A stretch of 64,000 nucleotides of DNA from an uncultured Lachnospiraceae bacterium. GTDB taxonomy: Bacteria > Bacillota > Clostridia > Lachnospirales > Lachnospiraceae. The notes beneath the pieces were generated by a model. It had not been told where the DNA came from, did no database searches, and worked only from the letters and a program-made list of their open reading frames with translations. Positions 10,092-40,097 of the stretch are shown piece after piece. The stretch is taken from positions 1 through 64,000 of the forward strand of contig CATLGV010000002.1 in NCBI GenBank assembly GCA_949948735.1, written 5' to 3'. Within the stretch, counting starts at the first letter, position 1; every line of letters starts with the position of its first letter. A program made the position numbers and the translations under genes.

Positions 10092-11204
10092 ATGGCAAGT
10101 TTATCATTAAAGAACATTTGCAAAGTTTATCCTAACGGATTCGAAGCCGTTAAGAACTTCAACCTTGAAATCGCCGATAAAGAGTTCATTATCTTCGTTG
10201 GTCCTTCAGGATGCGGTAAGTCTACCACACTTCGTATGATTGCCGGTCTTGAGGATATTTCTTCCGGTGAGCTGAAGATTGGCGACAGAGTAGTTAATGA
10301 TGTAGAGCCTAAGGATAGAGATATCGCGATGGTATTCCAGAACTATGCTTTGTATCCCCATATGTCAGTATACGATAACATGGCATTCGGTCTGAAGTTA
10401 AGAAAGGTACCGAAGGCTGAGATTGACAAGATGGTTAAGGAGGCAGCTAAGATCCTTGACCTGACTCCGCTCCTTGACAGAAAGCCGAAGGCTTTGTCAG
10501 GCGGTCAGAGACAGCGTGTTGCGATGGGACGTGCAATCGTTCGTAACCCTAAGGTATTCCTGATGGATGAGCCTCTTTCCAACTTGGACGCAAAGCTTCG
10601 TGTTCAGATGCGTATCGAGATTGCAAAGCTTCATCAGAGACTCGGCACCACCATCATCTACGTTACACATGACCAGACAGAGGCGATGACCCTTGGTACC
10701 CGTATCGTTGTTATGAAGGACGGTATTGTTCAGCAGGTAGATACACCGCAGAACCTGTATGAGAAGCCGCAGAACCTGTTCGTTGCAGGATTCATGGGAT
10801 CTCCGCAGATGAACTTCCTGGATGCGACCGTAGAGGTTAAGGGCGACACCGCTCACCTGAACATAGCAAGCCTTTCTATTCCGCTTCCTCCCGCGAAGTC
10901 CAAGAAGCTGATTGAGGGCGGTTACAACGGAAAGGTTGTTACATTCGGTATCAGACCGGAGGATATCTACGACTCACAGATGATGGTAGAAGCAAAGTCT
11001 GAGAGCACCTTTGAGACAACCATCCGTGTATACGAGCTGCTTGGTGCAGAAGTATTCCTGTATGCGGATCTGGCTGAGTTCCCGATTACCGCAAGAGTCG
11101 ATCCGAGAACAACGGCAAGACCTGGTGATAAGGTAAAGTTTGCTATCGACATTGAAAAAATTCATGTATTCGATAAGGAAACAGAGAAGGTTATCACAAA
11201 CTAG
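10092..11204 (+). CDS. ABC transporter ATP-binding protein, sugar (MsmK/UgpC) type
   Basis: Walker A GPSGCGKSTT, signature LSGGQRQRVAMGRAIVRNPKVFLMDEPLSNLDAKLR, C-terminal TOBE-like region. Confidence 0.95.
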   Translation: MASLSLKNICKVYPNGFEAVKNFNLEIADKEFIIFVGPSGCGKSTTLRMIAGLEDISSGELKIGDRVVNDVEPKDRDIAMVFQNYALYPHMSVYDNMAFGLKLRKVPKAEIDKMVKEAAKILDLTPLLDRKPKALSGGQRQRVAMGRAIVRNPKVFLMDEPLSNLDAKLRVQMRIEIAKLHQRLGTTIIYVTHDQTEAMTLGTRIVVMKDGIVQQVDTPQNLYEKPQNLFVAGFMGSPQMNFLDATVEVKGDTAHLNIASLSIPLPPAKSKKLIEGGYNGKVVTFGIRPEDIYDSQMMVEAKSESTFETTIRVYELLGAEVFLYADLAEFPITARVDPRTTARPGDKVKFAIDIEKIHVFDKETEKVITN

Positions 11205-35537: not shown

Positions 35538-36107
35538 TTATCTTTTCTGATGCGTCTGGAAATCTGTTTTCCTGAGAACCTGATGGACAAATGTCAGGGC
35601 AAAGAAGATGACACAGGTATCAATCGGCAGCATAATACAGTTCTTGATAATTCTCGGCGGCAGAATCGCCATAAAAGCGTTTCCGTTCAGAACAGACAGC
35701 CATAAGGTATTCAGTCCGCAGTTTACGACCACCTTTGTGATCAGCTCCGCCACAAAAACCCGCCACAGCTTCAACGGCTTTCTGTACAGGATAGAGCCGT
35801 AAATAATTCCCGCAACCATGACGTTCAAGGTATATCCGAAGAAAAACGCGCCGCCCTCCGGCTTCAGGAAATATTTGAGAATATCAAGCATGCCGCCGAA
35901 GATGGCACCGACTGCGGGGCCGAACAGGAACTCGACAATGCGGTTGGGGATTCCCGAAAAGCCGATTCGGATTGTCGGGGTGATGTAAATGGATGTGGTA
36001 TAATTGAGAACGACTGCCAGAGCCGCCATCATACCACACAGGACAAGATTGTGGGTTACTTTGATTTCCCTGAGGGAATCGACATAGAGCTTTCTGATTT
36101 TTTGCAT
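35538..36107 (-). CDS. folT: Folate-type ECF transporter S component
   Basis: MMAALAVVLNYTTSIYITPTIRIGFSGIPNRIVEFLFGPAVGAIFGGMLDILKYFLKPEGGAFFFGYTLNVMVAGIIYGSILY; THF riboswitch upstream. Confidence 0.88.
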   Translation of the reverse strand: MQKIRKLYVDSLREIKVTHNLVLCGMMAALAVVLNYTTSIYITPTIRIGFSGIPNRIVEFLFGPAVGAIFGGMLDILKYFLKPEGGAFFFGYTLNVMVAGIIYGSILYRKPLKLWRVFVAELITKVVVNCGLNTLWLSVLNGNAFMAILPPRIIKNCIMLPIDTCVIFFALTFVHQVLRKTDFQTHQKR

Positions 36108-36502: not shown

Positions 36503-36958
36503 ATGGACGGGATTTATTTGGGAACGGGGATAGCCCTGTTGTTGGGCCTGATATTGATAATAGCGGCTGGAGCCGCACTGTGCAGACGCTTTGGCAGACA
36601 TGGACGGCTTCGGGAGCTTGATGAGATGGAGGGCCTTGACTTCGAGTATTACTGCGCGGATCTGCTGGCCGCGCGAGGGTTTATTGATGTGGAGGTCACG
36701 AAGGGCAGCGGCGATTACGGTATAGATATTCTTGCGGAGAAGGAGGGCGTTACATATGCCATCCAGTGTAAGCGTTACAGTGCGCCCGTGGGCGTCAGGG
36801 CGGTACAGGAGGCCTATGCGGGGCGGGATTTTTATGACCGGATGGTTGGCTGTATTTTGACGAACCAGTATTTTACACAGCCTGCGGTCGAGGCAGCTGC
36901 GCGGCTAAAGATACTGTTATGGGACAGGGATTATCTGGAAAGCATGGAGGAGGAGTAA
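36503..36958 (+). CDS. Membrane-anchored Mrr-like restriction endonuclease-fold protein
   Basis: N-terminal TM (LGTGIALLLGLILIIAAGAALC); LDFEYYCADLLAARGFIDVEVTKGSGDYGIDILAEKEGVTYAIQCKRY (D...QxK). Confidence 0.85.
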   Translation: MDGIYLGTGIALLLGLILIIAAGAALCRRFGRHGRLRELDEMEGLDFEYYCADLLAARGFIDVEVTKGSGDYGIDILAEKEGVTYAIQCKRYSAPVGVRAVQEAYAGRDFYDRMVGCILTNQYFTQPAVEAAARLKILLWDRDYLESMEEE

Positions 36959-39132: not shown

Positions 39133-39193
39133 ATATGCGGCTGTATGGGTATGCACCGGAGTCTGCCGGATGCAACGAATGGTTGAGAAAACT

Positions 39194-39226
39194 AAGAAAG
39201 CTGGGTGCTTGCACCCGGCTTCTTTC
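39194..39226 (+). terminator. Intrinsic terminator
   Basis: AAGAAAGCTGGGTG-CTTG-CACCCGGCTTCTTT. Confidence 0.7.
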
Positions 39227-39296
39227 TCCTTTATCATGGAAACATACCGGTAAATAAAGTAACGCGCGCGTGATATTCTGAAACAGGAGGAAGAGA

Positions 39297-40097
39297 ATGA
39301 ATACGATAGGACAGATCATCAGACAATTGCGTAAAGCAAAGGGAGTGACGCAGGAGGAGCTGGCCGGCGCATTAAATGTGACGTATCAGGCGGTATCTAA
39401 ATGGGAAAACGGGGCGGCTCAGCCGGATATTATGATGATGCCGGTACTGGCAGCATATTTCGGGGTAACGATCGACGAGCTTTTTGGTTATAAGCTGGAC
39501 GTGATGACCAACAAGGAACGGCTGATTTGCCATATGGAAAGGAACCGTATCCTGGTCCGCGGGGAAGTGGATCTGAAATGTGGTGCGAAAACAGATTACT
39601 ATATAAACACGGAAAACTTTTCTACGAATGCCCAGCTGTCCCGAATTGGCGAGGTTTTTGCGGACTGTATCCGGGAAAACCGCCTGGAGTTTGACGTACT
39701 GGTGGGGCTGGCATACCACGGCATTGCGTTTGCGGTGGCGGCGGCGACGGCTTTGCATACGAAATACGGCAAAATATGCAGCTATTGTTATGACAGGCGG
39801 GTAGCGGACAGCAGAAGACGAATGCTGTGCGGCCACACGCTGCAGGACGGGGAACGGGTAGTGATTGTGGACGATGTGATGACTTCGGGGAGCTCTGTGG
39901 AGCAGCGGGTAGAGCAGCTGCGCCGTCAGGCCGATATCCGGGTGGCCGCGGTAATTGTGATTGTGAACCGCAGGAACCAGATGCCGGCAGGAGCTGCCTC
40001 CGGGGAGGAGCGCATTATGGAAAAGTACGGGGCCAAGGTTTATTCCCTGATTACGGATGAGGATATCGAAGCCGCCCTGCGGAATCGGATAATATAA
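39297..40097 (+). CDS. XRE-family HTH fused to orotate-phosphoribosyltransferase-like domain
   Basis: HTH IGQIIRQLRKAKGVTQEELAGALNVTYQAVSKWENGAAQPDI; OPRT-like LKCGAKTDYYINTENFSTNAQLSRIGEVFADCI and PRPP motif VVIVDDVMTSGSS. Confidence 0.88.
   Translation: MNTIGQIIRQLRKAKGVTQEELAGALNVTYQAVSKWENGAAQPDIMMMPVLAAYFGVTIDELFGYKLDVMTNKERLICHMERNRILVRGEVDLKCGAKTDYYINTENFSTNAQLSRIGEVFADCIRENRLEFDVLVGLAYHGIAFAVAAATALHTKYGKICSYCYDRRVADSRRRMLCGHTLQDGERVVIVDDVMTSGSSVEQRVEQLRRQADIRVAAVIVIVNRRNQMPAGAASGEERIMEKYGAKVYSLITDEDIEAALRNRII

Follow-up and report, generated by a model that had tools for sequence, protein, structure and literature searches.

A probable helix-turn-helix regulator with a probably inactive orotate phosphoribosyltransferase domain in Lachnospiraceae

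The genome of an uncultured Lachnospiraceae bacterium encodes a protein in which an XRE family helix-turn-helix (HTH) precedes a domain resembling orotate phosphoribosyltransferase (OPRT, PyrE), with a catalytic loop that departs from the usual sequence. Whether such a protein is an enzyme, a transcriptional regulator or both is the question considered here. The window analysed is a stretch of 64,000 nucleotides of assembly GCA_949948735.1 (contig CATLGV010000002.1, positions 1 to 64,000), and the gene was compared with its relatives in other genomes.

Domain structure of the fusion protein

The gene is an intact open reading frame from ATG to stop, at the position assigned to it by a previous sequence-only reading (Table 1). 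Its N-terminal part matches the Pfam model HTH_3 at residues 8-62 (E 1.9e-15, 57 bits against a cut-off of 23), and the QAVSKWE sequence of the recognition helix is invariant across the 22 members of classes I and II (defined below). The C-terminal part matches Pfam Pribosyltran at residues 114-225 (E 4.6e-10) and the NCBIfam pyrE model TIGR00336 with 104.8 bits (E 4.2e-30), just below that model's cut-off of 106.8, while residues 83-262 align to the solved OPRT structures of Salmonella and E. coli (1sto, 1lh0 and 1oro, E 6e-26 to 1e-23). These matches bear out the proposal of the sequence-only reading that an XRE domain is fused to an OPRT domain, and the same architecture extends to a family of proteins; the OPRT and PRPP motifs quoted in that reading, together with the odd loop DRRVADSRRRML, are all present in the protein. 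An AlphaFold2 model built from ten sequences was good for the HTH and poor for the OPRT domain (mean pLDDT 55.9). Because a separate canonical pyrE with intact YKG and RKEAKDHG motifs is present elsewhere in the same genome (G000:C14), the fusion is not its sole OPRT homologue.

Table 1. Features of the XRE-OPRT locus, in coordinates of the window
Feature	Position	Strand	Basis or remark
Candidate palindromic operator CAACGAATGGTTG, consensus CAACCnnnGGTTG	39173..39185	.	Site and spacing common to 22 class I/II members
Hairpin AAGCTGGGTGC-TTGC-ACCCGGCTT, overlapping the -35	39198..39221	+	Sequence; like sequence in closest relatives only, absent from L047 and L048
Predicted promoter TTGCAC-17-TATCAT (39209-39214, 17 bp spacer, 39232-39237)	39209..39237	+	TTGnnn 23 bp from palindrome in 22/22
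Ribosome binding site AGGAGG	39285..39290	+	Sequence
XRE-OPRT fusion gene, 266 aa	39297..40097	+	Intact; 24 distinct homologues; dN/dS 0.061 against L040
XRE HTH, residues 4-63, recognition helix YQAVSKWEN	39306..39485	+	Pfam HTH_3
OPRT-type phosphoribosyltransferase domain, residues 83-256	39543..40064	+	TIGR00336, PDB OPRTs
Pyrophosphate loop AYHGIAF, residues 139-145 (OPRT Lys73 is His141)	39711..39731	+	Alignment with PyrE
Altered catalytic loop DRRVADSRRRMLCG, residues 166-179, two residues shorter	39792..39833	+	Alignment with PyrE
PRPP signature VVIVDDVMTSGSS, residues 188-200	39858..39896	+	D192, D193 and G198 invariant, 22/22

Distribution and phylogeny

The window copy and its relatives make up 25 distinct fusions, all from Lachnospiraceae and patchily distributed. 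Twenty-two are close to one another and form classes I and II, and three more distant ones form class III; class I is the window type, which has no conserved neighbour, class II adjoins the thymidylate synthase gene thyA, and class III adjoins a pyrF-like gene. Two of 299 genomes in the family sample carry the fusion, the second being G096, and an alignment of these two sequences scanned against GTDB species genomes returned nine loci, all in Lachnospiraceae. The order sample added one carrier, G568, in whose genus 15 of 101 genomes have the fusion; in the window's own genus two of 38 have it, and a search with a divergent member reached two further genera. No full-length fusion from another family turned up in either the order sample or the class sample; the matches from other families in the class sample are PyrE-like and start no earlier than about query residue 60. 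In viral contigs only the HTH region was matched, with nothing extending into the phosphoribosyltransferase (PRTase) core, and plasmids gave matches to the PRTase part only, one of them annotated as pyrE.

In a tree with 55 PyrE sequences, all fusions fall on one side of a branch with support 98/96. Classes I and II together form one group (100/100), as do class II (100/99) and class III (99/94) individually; class I is not monophyletic. A single origin of the fusions is possible and is favoured by the linker Y[KR]L.A...KERF that they have in common, although the class III branches are long.

Replaced and retained active-site residues

The catalytic residues K73, K103 and H105 of OPRT are H, D and R in the window copy. 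Position K73 is H in all 22 class I and II fusions and K in all 55 PyrE sequences; K103 is likewise fixed as D in all 22, and H105 has become R or K. Within the loop of the window copy, R99 and K100 are retained as R167 and R168, with D171 in place of K103 and R173 (K in L122 and L124) in place of H105. A comparison of 11 fusions with the 55 PyrE sequences gave H for K73, V for E101, D for K103, S for D104 and R for H105, with R99 and K100 retained as R and R/K, and with the ribose Asp pair and the 5'-phosphate loop also retained. K103 contacts the pyrophosphate of PRPP, and E. coli OPRT loses nearly all activity when this residue is substituted or acetylated (PMC10087573); in the OPRT of M. 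tuberculosis, Glu120 and Asp121 contact the ribose, and Arg94 and Lys95 the pyrophosphate (PMC5430920).

The motif by which PyrE holds the ribose and 5'-phosphate of PRPP is present in the window protein as VVIVDDVMTSGSS. Residues H141, D166, R167, D171, R175, D192, D193 and G198 are invariant in the 22 class I and II members. The base pocket is more variable than the ribose-phosphate site, since K26 is not conserved among the fusions and L122 to L124 lack R156, and for the same reasons orotate or OMP as ligand would fit some members poorly. The loop of classes I and II constitutes a new conserved sequence, D-R-[RKQ]-x-x-D-x-[RK]-x-R-x-[LIF]-C-G, rather than a product of simple decay. Among these members, entropy is 0.27 in the pyrophosphate loop and 0.59 in the catalytic loop, against 1.03 over the whole domain, and pairwise dN/dS is 0.03-0.16. 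The invariance of D171 and R175 and the higher conservation of the loop than of the average domain position argue that the odd motifs are neither chance nor sequencing error. The three class III proteins have lost the catalytic loop altogether and retain a phosphate loop of the [ED][DA]..T..G type and R156-like residues.

The replacement of K73, K103 and H105, the preserved ribose-phosphate site, the low dN/dS and the loss of the loop in class III together indicate that the domain is very probably a dead PRTase retained as a ligand pocket. We infer the loss of OPRT activity from these residues. Loss of catalysis and retention of the phosphoribosyl site, which the sequence-only reading had suggested from a single protein, thus appear to hold across the family, with fixed substitutions and invariant D192, D193 and G198 in classes I and II, and K73 to H adds a second replaced active-site position beyond the loop. 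The window protein may bind PRPP; the loss of K73 and K103 weakens the pyrophosphate contacts and argues against simple PRPP binding, but R167, R168, R173 and R175 could compensate.

Gene neighbourhoods

The window copy stands alone, with a MATE transporter gene on one side and genes of the opposite strand on the other, and has no adjoining pyrimidine gene. Class II fusions lie between a gene for a beta-CASP metallo-hydrolase and thyA, with thyA downstream (16 bp from the fusion in L125) and, at several loci, a dihydrofolate reductase gene further along. In class III (G682, G131 and G030), the fusion directly precedes a pyrF-like open reading frame, which by its sequence is probably pyrF, for orotidine-phosphate decarboxylase. 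Genes for dUTPase and pyrBI (L047) and for a deaminase (L046) were considered as linked genes and dropped because they are several kb away. A toxin-antitoxin reading of the window gene was rejected because no small partner gene adjoins it and its neighbours are not conserved. The position downstream of the beta-CASP gene, which holds the XRE-OPRT fusion in class II genomes (G568 and others), is occupied in the window's genome (G000:C34, L137) by a different XRE gene, whose 250-residue product has another C-terminal domain and which has the same palindrome as the fusion.

A conserved palindrome upstream of the predicted promoter

A CAACCnnnGGTTG-like palindrome with zero to two mismatches lies exactly 23 bp on the 5' side of a TTGnnn -35 element in all 22 class I and II genes. 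The DNA between palindrome and -35 differs among the 22 members and contains an A-rich stretch in most of them. In class III, two of three genes share this palindrome and its spacing, together with TATAAT and TGGAGA, a poor -35. By chance, 8% of shuffled 300-bp upstream sequences contain a match with two or fewer mismatches at any position. The inverted repeat over the predicted -35 of the window gene is GC-rich, with a T tract.

The palindrome is not confined to the fusions. With a -10 element at fixed distance, CAACCnnnGGTTG precedes many unrelated XRE genes whose products have a Q[AS][VI]SKWE helix (L142-L171 and L100-L114). Nine of 15 exact palindromes examined in four fusion-bearing genomes are, by a first criterion, upstream of XRE genes, as is a tenth, L109; in the window's genome, every exact site lies at another XRE gene. 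Of the matches to the whole architecture, 22 of 30 sampled precede XRE genes, and the pattern read backwards as a control gave 26 matches against 83, about three times fewer. Searches with extended and architecture patterns found no wider regulon, the matches being mostly other XRE genes. The palindrome therefore looks like a general operator for XRE regulators of the Q[AS][VI]SKWE type in these gut bacteria, on which basis the fusion is read as autoregulated through a putative operator at its own promoter, with strong comparative support. The targets, called unknown in the sequence-only reading, may accordingly be narrowed to the gene's own promoter and, in the sister classes, to thyA and the pyrF-like gene. 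The centre of the candidate operator is at about -65 relative to the predicted start site, which is a usual place for an activator. Activation is only slightly favoured over repression, because the start site is a prediction and other XRE genes have this architecture too.

Comparison with known regulators

Several proteins with a PRTase fold invite comparison. The sequence-only reading cited Bacillus PurR as a precedent with a different HTH and PRTase subtype, and both the likeness and the differences stand. In PurR, an N-terminal DNA-binding domain is followed by a PRT domain that has no enzyme activity and binds both PRPP, the inducer, and ppGpp, the anti-inducer; its HTH is winged, and its PRT domain has been compared with HPRT and XPRT (PMC8789054). 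The window protein scores 28.1 bits against the PurR model TIGR01743 (cut-off 258.7). A closer precedent than PurR, with higher scores, is provided by the archaeal PyrE-like regulators PRK02277 and GfcR (NF045507), in which an HTH is likewise followed by an OPRT-like domain; the matches (63.6 bits against a cut-off of 115, and 35.4 against 300) are limited to the PRTase part. GfcR acts as a regulator, as its model's name also indicates. With scores so far below the cut-offs, the window protein is not a member of PurR, PRK02277 or GfcR. It resembles PyrE in fold, in the ribose Asp pair and 5'-phosphate loop and in its equivalents of R99/K100 and R156, and differs in the replacement of K73, K103 and H105, the added HTH and, in the window copy, the loss of the C-terminal extension.

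PyrR, the usual pyrimidine regulator of Firmicutes, is also a PRTase-fold regulator of pyrimidine genes, but its target is RNA and it has uracil PRTase activity. No PyrR model was among the 25 family-model matches listed for the window protein. A search of 23 Lachnospiraceae genomes gave no PyrR; in the class sample it was found in 87 of 148 genomes and not in the Lachnospiraceae reported there. The query was a B. subtilis PyrR sequence, for which the many matches of 50-66% identity in the class sample are a positive control. Literature searches returned no paper describing an XRE-OPRT fusion, nor one about GfcR. The fusion is best read as a kind of regulator for which no description in Lachnospiraceae was found, working like PurR and GfcR and belonging to neither.

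Proposed mode of action

The replacement of catalytic residues in a protein under strong selection points to regulation, and the protein is probably a ligand-sensing, autoregulating, pyrimidine-linked regulator with a dead OPRT domain. It would be a one-component transcription regulator whose XRE domain, probably dimeric, binds CAACCnnnGGTTG some 65 bp upstream of its own start and thereby controls transcription of its own gene and, among sister lineages, of the downstream pyrimidine gene (thyA or pyrF-like). The former OPRT domain, having lost the residues for phosphoribose transfer and kept the ribose and 5'-phosphate site, would hold a phosphoribosyl metabolite of the pyrimidine pathway, most likely PRPP, with OMP or UMP next, and the ligand would alter this domain so as to shift DNA binding or contact with RNA polymerase. 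Ligand, direction of regulation and targets of the window copy are proposed on these comparative grounds.

Other functions are conceivable. The conserved altered loop of classes I and II and the intact PRPP signature might belong to a bifunctional enzyme-regulator that still acts as a phosphoribosyltransferase, though with a changed base specificity or reaction. This is improbable: K73 and K103 are invariantly replaced, a change of K103 is nearly fatal to the E. coli enzyme (PMC10087573), and class III retains the candidate operator and a pyrimidine neighbour without the catalytic loop. Equally improbable is a simple autoregulator whose OPRT remnant serves solely as a ligand-free dimerization scaffold; OPRT folds do dimerize, and no separate regulon was found in the window's genome, but pocket-lining residues vary less than other positions of the domain, as the entropy values indicate. 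Slightly less probable still is a regulator of the kind proposed here whose ligand is (p)ppGpp or a phosphoribosyl metabolite outside the pyrimidine pathway, for although ppGpp is bound in a pocket of this kind in PurR (PMC8789054) and the window copy has no pyrimidine neighbour, fusions of two other classes are linked to thyA and to the pyrF-like gene.

The broader form of the preferred reading, a new transcription-factor family in which a dead OPRT senses the state of the pyrimidine pathway and controls thyA and pyrF at the DNA level in Lachnospiraceae, stands at about even chances. If true, Firmicutes would have turned a PRTase into a transcription factor a second, independent time, here starting from the pyrimidine enzyme OPRT, and the family would offer a possible answer to how pyrimidine synthesis is regulated in some Lachnospiraceae where PyrR was not found. 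With a conserved candidate operator at fixed spacing, the regulator model is directly testable.

Other features of the loci

Three further features were observed around the fusion genes. A folate-family ECF transporter S component (TIGR04518) is encoded on the minus strand of the window at 35538-36107, about 3 kb from the fusion. The small protein encoded at 36503-36958 has an Mrr-type restriction endonuclease domain behind an apparent N-terminal membrane segment. At another locus (L131, approximately 10358-10913), an XRE-OPRT gene and a pyrF-like gene are, by eye, just upstream of the apparent start of a 16S rRNA gene.
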